Shown: piece by piece, positions 56,401 to 58,485 of the stretch
Position numbering within the stretch: the first letter of the stretch is position 1
How the letters are laid out: every line of letters starts with the position of its first letter
Assembly (NCBI GenBank): GCA_917880885.1
Contig: OU862910.1
Coordinates: 10,304,710-10,368,709, forward strand
DNA from: Limnephilus marmoratus
Lineage: Eukaryota > Arthropoda > Insecta > Trichoptera > Limnephilidae
Direction of reading: 5' to 3'
Length of the DNA stretch: 64,000 nt
Made by a program: the position numbers and the translations under genes
The notes under the pieces: model-generated
Database searches by the model: none
What the model saw: the letters and a program-made list of their open reading frames with translations, nothing else
What the model was told of the DNA's origin: nothing

Positions 56401-58485
56401 GCCCTGAGGGAAATTATTTTCCTCAGGGCCTCCTGTGTGGAGCTCATGTAAAAAAAAAAAAAAACTTTAAAAAATGTCACTTGAGCCCAATATTTCATAT
56501 ACCCTTTTTGCCCCAAATAATGTCAAAAATCACTGGTTAAATAGTAAGTCAAGTACATTCCTTAATGCTCTGTATTTTAGTAACAAGTTGAAAAGTTATC
56601 ATACGGAGAGTAATTAAATTGCTTGGTCCGTCAATCTCACCTTGTCTATTCTATATCAATGGTAGTATTATAAATACATCCTCTCTGCACACTAGTTAAG
56701 TTTTAGAGCATAGGTAATTCCACTAGCGCACTTTGGTCCGCCTTAATTGTTGCATCAGATATCCATCAACTGAATCTTATAATGGAGGTGCTCGGAACGC
56801 CCGGTGCCGAATTCATGCAGAAAATATCCTCCGAATCTGTGAGTAAATTTTTACCAGCTAATAAACACGCTAATACCACCAATTGTCATAGAAAAAATTG
56901 TTATATATTGCAGATAGAAGTGTGCGTATAATTGAAATAACTTGATTGATATTTTTTTTTGTTTATCGTCTGATTGTCAGATTTTAATATTTTAATGCAG
57001 GCAGAAAGATTGCTTCTTTAAACCAAATTTAATACTTAACCCCTCAGGCCTTGGGCATATTCTGAAATATATTGCGTAAAATACAAATAAATGGAATATT
57101 TTTTAATGTATCCAAAAACTGTTTTTGAAAGGTGATGAAATACACTTTCAAATTTTATTATTAGAAATTATCATGTAAATTTTGAAATATAAAATTTTTT
57201 AATGCAAACATAAAAAGTAAAAAAAAAACTAATTTAACATTTTTTCTAACTAAAATACTGATAAAGAAAAAAATACAAACACATGTATTTTATTAGAAAA
57301 TGTATAATAAAAGTTATGATCCCACCACTTTTTTATTGTTTTATGTAAAAATATATTTTTTTTATTTTACAATTTAAAAAAAAAATCATATTACGGTCGG
57401 AAACTTTGGTTTCATAGGGGTGTGTCTTTTAGATTTGAATATAAAGCAATTATTTTCTCTTTCTAACATTTCTTTCTAACATTTCTTTCTACGATTTCTA
57501 TGAGTTATTCCCAATAACGAACCAATTAGTCTGAGGGGTTAATACTTTTATTCACTTATTCTGCTGTTTTTTTTACATTTACATGTATTGCTTTATGTTT
57601 TGTGTCTTAACAAAGTAACTAAACACACATGATTATTAACTTATTAGCAAAAATAGTTAATAATTGATAAACTAAATACCTGCAATCTAAAATTATTAAA
57701 ATTCTTTGTTCATTCTTCTCTTTCTGTAAGTTGTGATAACGATTATTAAAAAATCAAAGTCAATATTCATAATTGCATTATTCTATTGCAAGTTTCTGAA
57801 GTTTATTTCTTTTAAGATTATATATCTCCAGATCTAAAATAATTGACTTTAAAAAAATGATGTACACTTATAAATTATACCAGAATCATTGATATGATTT
57901 TAGATTTTCACGGCCAAAAATTTTATGGTTATTTCCTTTTGGGGTATTATGCCGTGTTGCGCTACCTCCTCCTTTAGCCAACGTTTCGGAGAGCGTTACA
58001 GTGTCCATCATCATATCTGCCCTGATGATGGACACTGTAACGCTGTCCGAAACGTTGGCTAAAGGAGGAGGTAGCGCAACACGGCATAATACCCCAAAAG
58101 GAAATAACCACAGAATCATTGATGTTTTTGACCCTGCCTCCGAGAGCTCGGATTTTACATCTCTTTCTGTTACATGCACTGTTTTATGAGAAAGTGGGAG
58201 ATATTTAAACCTAGCTGTCGGCAGTATGGCTTAAGTTGGTGTTTGAAGGTGAAGTTTTCACGTCACTCCACAAATTCAAAGCTTTTGTTTATCTGTGCTT
58301 CCCCCCGCCACTCTGAATGTTTCTGTGCTTGAGCTTGTGCTTCATAATGACAATAATTGACAAGTAAACCAAGGCTTGCCTTAACCTTAACTGGCATCTG
58401 TACAGACATCGACCACCTTACCAGGATATTATTCCTGTGCGGTACACCAGAAACGGATACCATTGATAAAATAACCAGTGAGGAG
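29416..58485 (+). CDS. p38: p38 mitogen-activated protein kinase (partial, 3' end outside window)
   Basis: Exons 29416-29519, 36952-37088, 48819-49012, 49895-50004, 50893-51017, then 56759-56838 or 58406-58485. They join in frame to give 250 codons of an expected ~360. Kinase landmarks: glycine loop GSGAYG (27-32), ATP lysine in VAIK (K49), HRDLKPSN (144-151), DFG (164-166), and the p38-specific dual-phosphorylation site TGY (176-178). [25 protein letters not shown] and LFPGTDH follow. p38 kinases are activated by MKK3/6-type kinases in stress and immune signalling and phosphorylate transcription factors and MAPKAP kinases. No frameshift or lost catalytic residue is seen. Introns reach 11.7 kb and contain most of the window's transposons. 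The remaining C-terminal exons must lie past 64000. Confidence 0.96.
30182..30378. mobile_element. piggyBac-like MITE (TTAA flanks)
   Basis: Ends CCTTTCAAAGGCCAGG and the complement of CCTGTCAAGGGCCAGG are flanked by TTAA at 30178-30181 and 30379-30382. It is 197 bp, with a CG-rich patch (GCGCCCGCGCGCG) next to the left end. It lies in p38 intron 1. Confidence 0.78.
30650..30815. mobile_element. Harbinger-like MITE, intact 166-bp copy
   Basis: Ends GGGAACGTACCCATACTACG and its exact complement, with TAA on both sides (30647-30649, 30816-30818). C-rich runs lie inside each end. This is the reference copy for the fragments at 2398-2877 and 5329-5761. Confidence 0.85.
30923..31148. mobile_element. 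hAT-type MITE with CAGTGGCGTAGC ends
   Basis: Ends CAGTGGCGTAGC and GCTACGCCACTG with a perfect 8-bp duplication CATTCTCC (30915-30922, 31149-31156). It is 226 bp. The same family is nested at 39871-40033. Confidence 0.88.
31880..32445 (+). repeat. Retrotransposon-like 3' region
   Basis: Starts with 'gctgacccggcaaacgttgt' and ends with 'aaaatcggtcgaacagttt', then 'ggaggagtgcaaccacaaac' and an AT-rich tail. Sequences of this type form the 3' ends of abundant insect LINEs. No coding region is left. The class is inferred from general resemblance only. Confidence 0.45.
32509..32831. mobile_element. pogo/Tigger-like MITE
   Basis: The left end CAGTACAATCTCACTAATCC and the right end (complement, GGATTAGTGAGATTGTA) lie in TA-rich flanks. 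'aataatccggcaccctc' is repeated internally near both ends. Exact tips are uncertain by a few bases. Confidence 0.72.
32865..33464 (+). pseudogene. LINE reverse-transcriptase C-terminal fragment
   Basis: The 199-codon frame resembles the thumb and C-terminal part of CR1/Jockey-type reverse transcriptases: [46 protein letters not shown], then NYETRN and a late FKKKCYAY. The catalytic domain is missing, so the copy is 5' truncated. The 3' UTR ends near 33545 with an A run. It lies in p38 intron 1. Confidence 0.75.
33861..35312. mobile_element. hAT-type element copy B, host of a nested copy
   Basis: Ends GGGAGGAATGCAGATCC and the complement of GGGTGAAATGCAGATCC with a perfect 8-bp duplication ATATATTT (33853-33860, 35313-35320). 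The interior has the 80-bp 'tactttaaaaaacagcctac' modules and subterminal 'acttcgcgaaccg' boxes seen in the element at 197. It is split by copy C. Confidence 0.87.
34326..34877. mobile_element. hAT-type element copy C nested in copy B
   Basis: Ends GGGTGAAATGCAGATCCCGC and a right-hand complement. An 8-bp duplication TAGCAGGC (34318-34325, 34878-34885) was made from the host element's own tandem module. The interior has one 110-bp-type unit (34560-34690). It is 552 bp. Confidence 0.88.
35655..36605. repeat. Unclassified repeat R split by an RTE insertion
   Basis: 35655-35755 and 36535-36605 match the two halves of the uninterrupted copy at 42443-42605 ('aatgactgacgattagtatt', 'ttgagaaatagccactaata'). 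The RTE fragment lies between them. Confidence 0.65.
35779..36530 (+). pseudogene. RTE-type LINE reverse-transcriptase 3' fragment
   Basis: The translation, with a few frame breaks, follows the RTE C-terminal pattern: [11 protein letters not shown] near 35920, then [20 protein letters not shown], the EMRSLRRIC block, and LRWFGHVRM. It continues in another frame through [10 protein letters not shown] to the 'gtccgtcctctctgcctacc' end and a TTAGTTAG tail. Endonuclease and catalytic motifs are absent. It has stop codons and frameshifts and is not functional. Confidence 0.8.
37684..37965 (-). mobile_element. LINE 3' fragment (same family as 38960-39654)
   Basis: 'atatcgatattcgaagtgat' and 'accattggcaagttagtt' match the downstream part of the minus-strand LINE at 39080-39200. 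A T-rich start (minus-strand A tail side) is at 37684. Only the last part of the reading frame and 3' UTR remains. Confidence 0.6.
38030..38225 (-). mobile_element. SINE-like repeat S1
   Basis: The minus strand reads 'gggaggcgggtttgggtaca', then 'ttggataaccaaaacccctg' and 'gtggttcgctacgtttggtg'. These are the head and middle of the S family seen at 48337, 49487, 52900 and 56165. The 3' tail is missing. Confidence 0.65.
38517..38565 (-). repeat. tRNA-like T-arm segment
   Basis: The minus strand has GGTTTGATTCCC in a stem context (CAGGTTTGATTCCCGG), a B-box match. Similar segments occur on minus at 40222-40265 (GGGTTCAATTCC), 44523-44560 (GGGTTCAACTCC) and 44885-44930 (GGGTTCGATTCC). They are probably SINE or tRNA pseudogene pieces. 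None folds into a complete tRNA by eye. Confidence 0.4.
38960..39654 (-). pseudogene. Jockey/R1-like LINE reverse-transcriptase C-terminal fragment
   Basis: The minus frame has [11 protein letters not shown] (around 39645), [33 protein letters not shown] and [13 protein letters not shown]. It shifts frame near 39340 and ends with [14 protein letters not shown]. The catalytic YADD region is absent, and the 5' end is truncated at about 39670. It lies in p38 intron 2. Confidence 0.72.
39725..40101. mobile_element. hAT-type MITE with a nested hAT MITE
   Basis: Ends CAGGGTTTCCCAACCAGTGG and GGTTGGGAACCACTG, with a perfect 8-bp duplication CTCTAGTG (39717-39724, 40102-40109). The interior 'gtggtccg' phrases flank the nested element at 39871. 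Confidence 0.87.
39871..40033. mobile_element. Nested hAT-type MITE (CAGTGGC family)
   Basis: Ends CAGTGGC and CTACGCCACTG with a perfect 8-bp duplication CTTGTGGT (39863-39870, 40034-40041). It is 163 bp, in the family of 30923-31148, and inserted into the MITE at 39725. Confidence 0.85.
40390..41040. other. GC/CpG-rich segment in p38 intron 2
   Basis: 40440-40600 is strikingly GC-rich (GCACCGCGCGGCGCCCGTGC) in an AT-rich intron. An AATAAA at 40840 precedes a further GC-rich stretch. The layout (GC-rich 5' part, then AATAAA) could be a solo LTR or a promoter-first-exon unit. No flanking duplication or splice structure was found. The open frames on both strands are composition artefacts. Confidence 0.35.
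41640..42440 (-). repeat. Three tandem copies of a LINE/SINE 3' tail
   Basis: T-runs followed by 'acataagctccacacaggag' recur at about 41651, 41831 and 42014. Each is followed by the 'ccctgaggaaaat' hairpin and the 'aaggaaaggaagaagagg' tract. Units 1 and 2 are about 180 bp and nearly identical. Unit 3 runs into the S-family body and is more diverged. The sequence equals the 3' tail of the LINE at 42753-43315 in the opposite orientation. Confidence 0.7.
42443..42605. repeat. Unclassified repeat R, uninterrupted copy
   Basis: Matches the two pieces at 35655-35755 and 36535-36605. No coding content. Confidence 0.65.
42753..43315 (+). pseudogene. LINE reverse-transcriptase C-terminal fragment with intact 3' end
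   Basis: The frame from about 42780 reads [28 protein letters not shown], then [46 protein letters not shown] and a final FKTNVHSFL. This is the classical C-terminal tail of CR1/Jockey-type polymerases. A 3' UTR of about 55 bp forms two stacked stems and ends in an A run at 43302. It is 5' truncated and lies in p38 intron 2. Confidence 0.8.
43320..43462. repeat. Palindromic repeat of the GGCATAACACCCC family
   Basis: 'tttggggtgttatgccgtgt' and 'gctacctcctcctttagcca' are followed directly by their complement after a tiny AAGCTTAAGC centre, giving arms of about 55 bp. It is the same family as 57890-58110 but lacks the CTGATGATGG centre. Confidence 0.75.
43463..44500. other. AT-rich p38 intron 2 sequence
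   Basis: No coding capacity or recognisable repeat was seen in this stretch. Confidence 0.4.
44935..45659. mobile_element. P-like element carrying a THAP fragment
   Basis: 31-bp class ends begin CATAGACATATGAATATTAA and are complementary at the right end. Flanks are ACCTTAAC and ACCTTAAA (7 of 8), an 8-bp duplication as made by P-type transposases. On minus at 45276-45650 an open frame contains [16 protein letters not shown] and ITFHR, which resembles the start of a THAP domain (C-x4-C ... FHR). The rest of a transposase is absent. Confidence 0.65.
45276..45650 (-). pseudogene. THAP-domain fragment inside the P-like element
   Basis: 124 codons. The THAP-like start (C-VLKT-C, then N-R-S-E-K and FHR) lies around residues 61-84. 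The following AVW/W..CS.HF part is missing, so the domain is incomplete. It is probably the remains of exon 1 of a P-type transposase, with a splice donor possibly after the FHR codons. Confidence 0.5.
46351..46624. mobile_element. Inverted-repeat MITE with an inner inverted repeat
   Basis: 'ttttattggaacaacttttg' continuing through 'gaaggttatacccatcaat' is inverted at 46586-46624. A second inverted pair ('gtaccttaaaggataaacc') at 46426-46497 suggests a nested element. No clear target duplication. Confidence 0.55.
46990..47295 (-). pseudogene. Probable LINE C-terminal remnant
   Basis: The minus frame of 101 codons contains [20 protein letters not shown] followed by [10 protein letters not shown], matching the G.R.F...AT..WN.LP..IR pattern that ends many LINE polymerases. 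No catalytic part. Related pieces appear near 50160-50300 and 36690-36790. Confidence 0.45.
47334..47740. mobile_element. hAT-type element copy D, 3' end missing
   Basis: The left end GGGTGAAATGCAGATCCCGC and subterminal boxes are as in copies A to C. It is followed by one 110-bp-type tandem unit (47630-47735). No right end was found, so it is truncated. Confidence 0.65.
48337..48645 (-). mobile_element. SINE-like repeat S2
   Basis: Minus strand: 'gggaggcgggattgggtacc' head, 'ttggataaccaacacctctg', 'gtggttcgctacgtttggtg', a pyrimidine-rich tract, then the LINE-type tail with the GCCCTGAAGG...CTCA hairpin and an A run. It ends 174 bp before p38 exon 3. Confidence 0.75.
49487..49855 (-). mobile_element. 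SINE-like repeat S3
   Basis: Same order of head, middle, CT-rich tract and shared tail as S2, with an A run at the 5' side of the plus strand (minus 3' end). It lies in p38 intron 3, ending about 40 bp before exon 4. Confidence 0.75.
50300..50727. mobile_element. piggyBac-like element, one end (family of 57040)
   Basis: The right end CGAGGCCTGAGGGG is followed by TTAA (50728-50731). The interior ('aatttatttggattt', 'ttcggatacattcagaaat') is the inverted match of 57050-57480. The left tip is not identifiable. Confidence 0.5.
51197..52231. mobile_element. Candidate piggyBac-like element in p38 intron 5
   Basis: TTAA followed by CCCCTAGGAACC at left, and GGCCCCTACGGG followed by TTAA at right, are weakly inverted. 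A second pair of TTAA sites (near 51331 and 51712) may mark another insertion. This is suggestive only. Confidence 0.35.
52465..52810. repeat. Repeat of the CTGATGATGGACAC family with an insert
   Basis: The left arm (52470-52545, 'ttggggtattatgccatgtt', 'gctctacctcct') and right arm (52718-52800, CTGATGATGGACACTATAAC ... GAAACGTTGGC ... 'gcaacacagcataacactcc') are inverted, separated by about 170 bp. Confidence 0.65.
52900..53140 (-). mobile_element. SINE-like repeat S4, tail missing
   Basis: The minus strand carries the S-family head and middle ('taggaggcgggtatgggtac', 'gtggttcgctacacttggag'). The shared LINE-type tail is absent. Confidence 0.6.
53504..54069. mobile_element. MITE with CAAGGTTC ends (copy 2), split by a piggyBac-like MITE
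   Basis: Ends CAAGGTTCGCAGAAAATGCG and the complement of CAAGGTTCGTAGAAAATGCG. Flanks are GTTTTAGCC and GTTATAACC (7 of 9). The interior matches 26993-27242 in inverted order. It is interrupted at 53734-54044. Confidence 0.72.
53734..54044. mobile_element. Nested piggyBac-like MITE
   Basis: Ends CCCGTCTGCTTG and CAAGCAGACGGG are perfectly inverted and flanked by TTAA (53730-53733, 54045-54048). It is 311 bp, inserted in the CAAGGTTC MITE. Confidence 0.82.
54735..55592 (+). mobile_element. hAT element with transposase C-terminal remnant
   Basis: Ends TAGGGATGTTACGAAT and the complement (TTCGTAACATCCCTA), followed by many GCATTC subterminal repeats. There is a perfect 8-bp duplication GTTTCAAT (54727-54734, 55593-55600). 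The 858 bp keep both ends but only the last part of the transposase, so this is an internal-deletion derivative that needs a donor enzyme. Confidence 0.9.
55147..55407 (+). pseudogene. hAT transposase dimerisation (hATC) domain remnant
   Basis: 86 codons from the ATG, with the open frame extending upstream. They contain [42 protein letters not shown] and LLFLKYN, the classical hATC block (W...Y..L..LA...L..P.SS...ER.FS.AG). The catalytic DDE region and BED finger are missing. Confidence 0.85.
56165..56465 (+). mobile_element. SINE-like repeat S5, complete copy
   Basis: Head 'gggaggcggggatgggtacc', middle 'ttggataaccaacacctcac' and 'gtggttcgctacgtttggta', tract 'ctcctctccttcctttcctt'. The last ~100 bp are nearly identical to the LINE 3' end at 43210-43300, ending in an A run. 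It lies in p38 intron 5, about 300 bp before exon 6a. Confidence 0.8.
56759..56838 (+). CDS. p38: p38 exon 6a (canonical alternative)
   Basis: 80 nt, entered in phase 1 after the single C left by exon 5, leaving phase 0. It encodes residues 224-250: [19 protein letters not shown], then MQKISSES. This fits the usual insect p38 sequence for the start of the MAPK insert. The acceptor is TGCATCAG and the donor GTGAGT. It probably alternates with 58406-58485. Confidence 0.93.
57040..57538. mobile_element. piggyBac-like MITE between p38 exons 6a and 6b
   Basis: Ends CCCCTCAGGCC and GTCTGAGGGG with TTAA on both sides (57036-57039, 57539-57542). It is 499 bp with a very AT-rich interior. Confidence 0.72.
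57890..58110. repeat. Long palindrome between p38 exons 6a and 6b
   Basis: Two arms of about 100 bp ('ttttggggtattatgccgtg', 'ttgcgctacctcctccttta', 'gccaacgtttcggagagcgt') are inverted around a CATATCTGCC centre with few mismatches. The right arm contains CTGATGATGGACAC ... GTCCGAAACGTTGGC. The transcript would form a very stable hairpin 296 nt upstream of exon 6b. Confidence 0.88.
58406..58485 (+). CDS. p38: p38 exon 6b (candidate mutually exclusive alternative)
   Basis: 80 nt between a CTGTACAG acceptor and a GTAATA donor, open in the same phase as exon 6a. The segment begins [19 protein letters not shown] and ends IDKITSEE. 11 of 27 residues equal exon 6a, including H-I, L, I, GTP, KI and S-E. 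Because 80 is not a multiple of three, inclusion of both exons shifts the frame, which enforces one-or-the-other use. Human MAPK14 makes isoforms that differ in exactly this segment. A relic duplication under weak selection is the alternative. Confidence 0.8.

Follow-up and report, generated by a model that had tools for sequence, protein, structure and literature searches.

Introduction

In vertebrates, the MAPK14 gene (p38 alpha) gives rise to CSBP2 and CSBP1 through the alternative use of exons 9a and 9b. The vertebrate gene is also described as having a U12-type intron at some position (PMC9501576, PMC6678158). Competition or incompatibility between U12 and U2 splice sites is presented as an accepted route to mutually exclusive exons (PMC8329584, PMC3584512, PMC5740500), and exons 6a/6b (7a/7b) of JNK (MAPK8/9) are likewise mutually exclusive MAPK exons with U12 and U2 sites (PMC8329584, PMC6717393). 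Here, 64,000 nucleotides of genomic DNA from the caddisfly Limnephilus marmoratus (the window) were analysed. A sequence-only reading had proposed that p38 has a pair of mutually exclusive exons for the segment that alternates in vertebrate MAPK14, a proposal supported by gene structure, conservation and annotated isoform pairs.

Results

The exons upstream of the pair identified the gene as p38 by their match to human MAPK14. The best PDB chains were MAPK14 (E 7e-135 for isoform B), Pfam Pkinase matched at 8e-58 and 4e-57, and the TGY activation motif was present in the translation of exons 4 and 5. A tblastn search of the window with an approximate p38 tail sequence recovered neither exon 7 nor any later exon.

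Splice assembly confirmed the positions, the 80-nt lengths and the phases previously assigned to exons 6a and 6b (Table 1), and the exon 5 donor follows position 51017, as in the earlier reading. The upstream coding sequence of 670 nt leaves a remainder of 1, so that either exon is entered after one codon base and left in frame 0. The two exons are adjacent, equal in length and phase, and homologous, as is looked for in mutually exclusive homologous exons. They are identical at 41 of 80 nucleotides and, when counted by eye, at 11 of 27 residues, the figure given earlier, and each supplies its own version of helix G and of the beginning of the MAPK insert. The expected frameshift on inclusion of both was also found, since reading 6a and then 6b leads to a stop codon inside 6b. 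A profile built from 36 distinct database 6b segments was run against all six frames of the window, and exon 6b was recovered first (E 6e-18) and 6a second (2.4e-6), followed by the next frame at 0.65. The signal of 6a and 6b is beyond chance.

Table 1. Positions of the p38 exons and candidate splice signals in the window
Feature	Position	Strand	Basis or detail
p38 exon 1 (coding portion, starting at ATG)	29416..29519	+	tblastn to human MAPK14; splice assembly
p38 exon 2	36952..37088	+	tblastn to human MAPK14; splice assembly
p38 exon 3	48819..49012	+	tblastn to human MAPK14; splice assembly
p38 exon 4	49895..50004	+	tblastn to human MAPK14; splice assembly
p38 exon 5 (last residues ...FPGTD, then one base)	50893..51017	+	tblastn to human MAPK14; splice assembly
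Putative U12-type 5' splice site of exon 5, GTATCCTTT	51018..51026	+	9/9 to consensus
Candidate U12-type branch-point core before 6a, CCTTAAT	56741..56747	+	A at 56746, 13 nt upstream
Alternative exon 6a	56759..56838	+	80 nt; frame and splice assembly; 6b-profile scan (second match)
Putative U2-type donor of 6a, GTGAGT	56839..56844	+	2/9 to U12 consensus
Two overlapping candidate U12-type branch-point cores before 6b, CCTTAAC	58379..58391	+	A at 58384 (22 nt upstream of acceptor) and 58390 (16 nt)
Alternative exon 6b	58406..58485	+	80 nt; frame and splice assembly; 6b-profile scan (top match)
Putative U2-type donor of 6b, GTAATA	58486..58491	+	4/9 to U12 consensus

The pair had been credited with consensus splice sites. 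This holds for the AG before and the GT after both exons, but the exon 5 donor and both acceptors look U12-type, which had been missed; the donors of the two alternative exons look like U2-type sites. When scored against the U12 donor consensus, the exon 5 donor was the sole exact match among the 3605 GT sites on the + strand of the window, and the six other p38 donors matched at 2-6 of 9 positions. A CCTTRAY core 10-20 nt upstream was present at 15 of 3173 AG sites in the window, a count that takes in only the 16-nt copy at 6b; the acceptors of 6a and 6b are both among these 15, and the core was found at none of the four acceptors of p38 exons 2-5. Against the longer TTCCTTRAY-type consensus the match is 7/9 at 13 nt for 6a and 7/9 at 16 nt for 6b, with exact cores, and the more distant 6b copy reaches 8/9; 8.9% of AG sites have a best match of at least 7 within 8-25 nt. 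The branch points are candidates, for which sequence alone is no proof. The 6b donor deviates from the usual GTRAGT. In Spodoptera frugiperda, one protein model translates through the exon 5 donor as DRILL, the same residues that the window DNA gives, a hint at conservation of the U12 donor in that species.

The second copy, which the earlier reading had proposed to look for in other insect orders, proved widespread. A 6b-type motif was present in 67 of 75 database matches, and the named ones came from ten insect orders, Artemia and mites. Far from being absent or broken in relatives, 6b of the window matches caddisfly, stick insect and cricket sequences at 85-90% identity over 40 residues. 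Mayflies have both types (6b in Cloeon, 6a in Neocloeon), and on these sequences the pair is old within insects. Comparison of 75 distinct 6a segments with 25 distinct 6b segments showed no shared residues at human positions 237, 239 and 254; this also holds at 230, 233 and 234, where it is imposed by the sorting patterns. The 6a and 6b segments of the window each fall in their own residue class. In three species with two annotated isoforms each, the proteins are identical outside the 6a/6b segment. At least eight gene models hold both segments, always in the order 6a-6b, and such predicted proteins are presumed to be gene-prediction errors. No description of an arthropod p38 exon pair was listed in the literature searched; NCBI annotation already has such isoforms.

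The CSBP1 motif was present in all 120 matches listed (of 188) for a CSBP1 query, and the named ones among those listed were all vertebrate. Trees of the 27 sites were compared for a shared origin, in which 6a is placed with CSBP2 and 6b beside CSBP1, an independent origin and a crossed one. Strict constraints gave pAU values of 0.10, 0.014 and 0.011, respectively. With relaxed constraints, four complete runs on the same 27 sites gave 0.62-0.83 (shared), 0.15-0.28 (independent) and 0.20-0.51 (crossed), none of them rejected, and in one incomplete run an independent origin did as well as the best tree.

Discussion

We consider it probable that the gene makes two p38 kinases by a mutually exclusive exon choice that U12/U2 incompatibility enforces. 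The difference between these kinases would be confined to 27 residues, which make up helix G and the beginning of the MAPK insert. The only partners for the U12-type donor of exon 5 would be the U12-type acceptors of 6a and 6b, and the exon chosen would then be joined to exon 7 from its own U2-type donor. U2 donors are not normally paired with U12 acceptors, so splicing of 6a to 6b would be barred. Skipping of both from exon 5 would likewise be barred provided that the acceptor of exon 7 is of the usual U2 type, as it presumably is, and any splicing mistake would result in a frameshift. The site sequences suggest that cells use them in this way. By analogy with what is stated for the vertebrate pair, the isoforms may differ in partner or substrate binding.

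The possibility was considered that the exclusion is real and mainly achieved through frameshift with nonsense-mediated decay or through regulatory proteins, the U12-like sites being a relic or coincidence. The 80-nt length, not a multiple of three, means that double inclusion stops early, and human MAPK14 exons 9a and 9b are listed with opposite responses when U2AF35 is depleted (PMC5224494, Table 1). This explanation is nevertheless unlikely, given a donor match unique in the window, branch-point cores exactly at the two relevant acceptors, and the reported listing of Mapk14 with the genes that retain U12-type introns in zebrafish and mice deficient in Zrsr (PMC9501576, PMC6678158). It is less likely still that 6b is a decaying or unused copy in Limnephilus marmoratus with 6a alone spliced: although the two Drosophila clusters among the matches listed (p38a and p38b) are of the 6a type and the 6b matches listed include no named Drosophila sequence, the caddisfly exon is open in frame, has its splice sites intact and fits the 6b class closely. 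An assembly artefact or collapse of two paralogous p38 genes is very unlikely, since nothing was found in its favour, the exons form one ordered set of single exons, and the isoform identity in three other species fits one gene rather than two.

If the choice between 6a and 6b operates as proposed, insects gain a second p38 isoform that Drosophila work would probably overlook, and work on p38 in pests, bees and disease vectors could therefore be dealing with a mixture of two kinases. Surveys based on Drosophila would miss the pair if that genus has only 6a, as the two clusters suggest. Most U12-type introns are reported to have been lost in Diptera (PMC3584512), which may explain a putative loss of 6b in higher flies. 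The U12 donor further leads to the prediction that stress signalling is under minor-spliceosome control. It is possible, though doubtful, that the bilaterian ancestor already had a p38 exon switch on a minor-class intron that still works in insects and vertebrates, with p38 activity feeding back on the splicing of its own isoforms; such feedback would follow from the stabilisation of U6atac by p38 described in human cells (PMC3728624).

The pair shares with vertebrate MAPK14 the kinase family, the 27-residue segment and its alternative use within one gene, and in the vertebrate gene too the common type comes first (joined models P0180, P0181, P0189 and P0200). The residues differ, the 6b consensus sharing 10-11 of 27 with CSBP1 and 15-16 of 27 with CSBP2. 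Insects offer a natural counterpart to human CSBP1/CSBP2 for studying the role of helix G and the MAPK insert; Kumar et al. 1995 state in their title that a yeast hog1 deletion is complemented by CSBP1 and not by CSBP2. The cacophony-type tandem pairs are likewise homologous tandem exons described as conserved across arthropods (PMC9741552), but cacophony is a channel whereas p38 is a signalling kinase. In JNK, the alternative exons are followed by the U12 5' sites, which are interlocked, whereas the p38 gene described here appears to have one shared upstream U12 donor and two U12-type acceptors.

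Organization of the p38 gene

The forward strand of the window contains the 5' portion of a gene for a p38 MAP kinase: five coding exons and, after them, 6a and 6b as alternatives for the sixth. An open frame of 250 residues runs through 6a and likewise through 6b. As the sequence-only reading had claimed, using both exons breaks the frame, the 6a-then-6b reading stopping within 6b, and the two are homologous, with 11 of 27 residues identical. At the DNA level they share 41 of 80 bases. When the window was scanned in six frames, profiles made from other species marked exactly the two intervals that had been proposed. 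No third copy was present in the window, 6a and 6b being the only segments below an E value of 0.6. Chance resemblance of the two exons was ruled out by the same scan. P0064, a Diaphorina citri protein with a gapped 6b, was left out of the profile scan, the exon trees and the residue comparison. A tblastn search of the window with a p38 tail query gave no match to p38 exon 7 or later exons.

Exons of the p38 gene and minisatellites in the window
Feature	Position	Strand	Period	Matches
p38 coding exon 1	29416-29519	+		
p38 coding exon 2	36952-37088	+		
p38 coding exon 3	48819-49012	+		
p38 coding exon 4	49895-50004	+		
p38 coding exon 5	50893-51017	+		
alternative exon 6a	56759-56838	+		
alternative exon 6b	58406-58485	+		
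minisatellite	62969-63236		39 nt	99%
minisatellite	63475-63710		45 nt	95%

The introns flanking the pair contain two interspersed inverted-repeat element copies (52461-52813 and 57892-58121), the latter, between 6a and 6b, being a hairpin with 99-nt arms that are 95% complementary. These repeats are copies of one interspersed element and are not taken as splice regulators. Downstream of 6b, positions 60201-62620 are likely the remains of a non-LTR retrotransposon, with an ORF carrying zinc-knuckle-like motifs and then a stretch whose match to an endonuclease-reverse transcriptase family falls below threshold.

Splice sites and the proposed mutually exclusive splicing

The exon 5 donor, GTATCCTTT, matches the full U12-type (minor spliceosome) consensus at 9 of 9 positions, the single case among the 3605 forward-strand GT sites of the window; the remaining six p38 donors match at 2 to 6 of 9. 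A putative branch-point core, CCTTAA(T/C), lies 13 nt before 6a and 16 nt before 6b, with a further copy 22 nt before 6b. This core stands at 10-20 nt before 15 of the 3173 AG sites in the window, the 6a and 6b acceptors included, and before none of p38 exons 2-5 (0/4). By contrast with exon 5, GTGAGT after 6a and GTAATA after 6b are U2-type (major spliceosome) donors. A Spodoptera frugiperda gene model reads across the exon 5 donor as DRILL, the same residues that the window DNA gives, and this one model hints that the U12 donor may be conserved in that species.

Incompatibility between U12 and U2 sites is described as general in an excerpt of PMC3584512, and U2/U12 acceptor incompatibility has been counted in five human clusters, according to an excerpt of PMC5740500. 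A single upstream U12 donor, with two U12 acceptors each followed by a U2 donor, would yield 5-6a-7 or 5-6b-7 only, an exclusivity that would require a U2 acceptor at exon 7. The splicing logic of the pair is unusually clear: given such an acceptor, site incompatibility and site layout would allow only one of 6a and 6b to be joined, and the frame rule would be a second safeguard against wrong joins. Excerpts of three papers report that U6atac is raised by p38 activity in human cells (PMC3728624), that a minor intron is said to lie in human p38 itself (PMC8199999) and that a feedback loop between p38 and U12 splicing is proposed for human MAPK14 (PMC12637451). Speculatively, such feedback in Limnephilus p38 would act at the step where the isoform is picked.

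Conservation of the two exons

The 6b segment, used as a query against 5.8 billion proteins, recovered 75 proteins, of which 67 carry a 6b-type motif (65 when the LFPG anchor is included) and 8 the 6a-type motif alone. The second exon recurs across insect orders: named 6b rows come from Lepidoptera, Trichoptera, Phasmatodea, Orthoptera and Diptera and further from Hemiptera, Hymenoptera, Psocodea, Ephemeroptera and Thysanoptera, with orders assigned from the organism names. Outside insects, 6b rows were found in Artemia and in the mites Tetranychus and Dinothrombium. The 6a query returned 259 proteins, and among the 120 listed are two Drosophila clusters, one of p38a and one of p38b.

In all three species compared (Neodiprion pinetum, Harpegnathos saltator and Bicyclus anynana) the isoforms are identical outside the segment, which fits splicing rather than duplicated genes. 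Both segments occur together in at least eight gene models, always 6a then 6b. Among public gene models, P0001-P0004, P0006, P0010, P0013 and P0055 join the two exons, and in P0063 the frame is shifted at the same spot. Public models that join 6a to 6b or are frame-shifted there perhaps arise because predictors lack a model of U12-type sites.

Between 75 distinct segments of the 6a class and 25 of the 6b class no residue is shared at human positions 230, 233, 234, 237, 239 and 254, a separation imposed at 230, 233 and 234 by the patterns used for sorting and independent of them at 237, 239 and 254. The set of 25 insect 6b segments excludes 17 rows that were considered odd or not from insects, P0064 and P0067 among those excluded, and for unnamed rows this was decided by eye; P0067 was also left out of the relaxed tree tests and the residue comparison. 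Three of 178 anchored segments fit neither pattern, two of them misjoined models and one a vertebrate. No relatives at the DNA level were confirmed in genome contigs (76 pattern stretches) or viral contigs (4 stretches).

Compared with the insect consensus segments, Artemia shares 18 of 27 residues with 6b and 15 with 6a, Dinothrombium 19 and 15, and Tetranychus 17 with each. TSEE and R at 234, among other residues, likewise look 6b-like. We lean toward 6b as the copy closer to the arthropod ancestor and 6a, the form seen in the Drosophila clusters, as the derived one, a leaning weakened by the Tetranychus tie. The listed matches of the 6a search include p38 proteins from several named beetles, mostly carrying KITSES, and no named beetle with 6b is among the 75 proteins of the 6b search. 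From these matches, 6b may have been lost not just in higher flies but also in Coleoptera.

Predicted effect on the protein

The stick-insect 6b isoform (P0009) was modelled from 33 sequences (mean pLDDT 77.5; 69-85 over the segment), and the model was used for secondary structure only. With moderate confidence, the segment is predicted to comprise a helix at 224-235, the GTP turn, a helix at 240-244 and the start of a helix at 249-257, which we take to be helix G together with the first part of the MAPK insert. The first helix of this model holds five of the six class-defining positions. In MAPKs this face adjoins substrate and lipid contacts, so altered partner choice would be the most likely effect of the swap.

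Relation to vertebrate MAPK14 and other systems

Such p38 isoforms are already publicly annotated as X1/X2-style variants, so databases contain the exon already. No arthropod description of the pair was found by title or abstract in a search of 5.39 million open-access papers. In PMC9741552, a survey of convergent exon pairs in human versus Drosophila and C. elegans, 'mapk' has zero occurrences in the main text.

CSBP2 and CSBP1, the MAPK14 isoforms that differ at the same segment, share 15-16 and 10-11 of 27 residues with 6b and 16 and 10 with 6a, respectively. A CSBP1 query matched 188 proteins; all 120 listed carry the CSBP1 motif, and the named rows among them are vertebrates only, from sharks to mammals. 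Strict constraints on trees of the 27 sites, which oblige 6a and 6b to form one clade each, gave pAU values of 0.014 for independent and 0.10 for shared origin, disfavouring the former. Relaxed tests of the same sites rejected neither; in the four complete relaxed runs shared origin was the likeliest of three hypotheses, and in an incomplete insects-only relaxed run, which gave just the best and independent trees, these two were level (pAU 0.653 each). The insects-only test was repeated with two other samples, and the free tree search missed the best tree in one relaxed run. The arthropod and vertebrate pairs may share ancestry or may have converged, the residues settling neither.

The exon-6 segment of MAPK12 is nearer CSBP1 (14/27, BLOSUM62 86) than CSBP2 (12/27, 73), and that of MAPK11 nearer CSBP2 (17/27) than CSBP1 (9/27). 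In vertebrates the exon pair may thus predate the p38 paralogues, its two forms having perhaps been split among them.

The likeness to vertebrate MAPK14 extends to exon position, exon order and the reported presence of a U12 intron at some point in the gene. JNK genes, in excerpts of PMC8329584 and PMC6717393, likewise have mutually exclusive exons under U12 and U2 sites, although their layout differs from that of p38 here.
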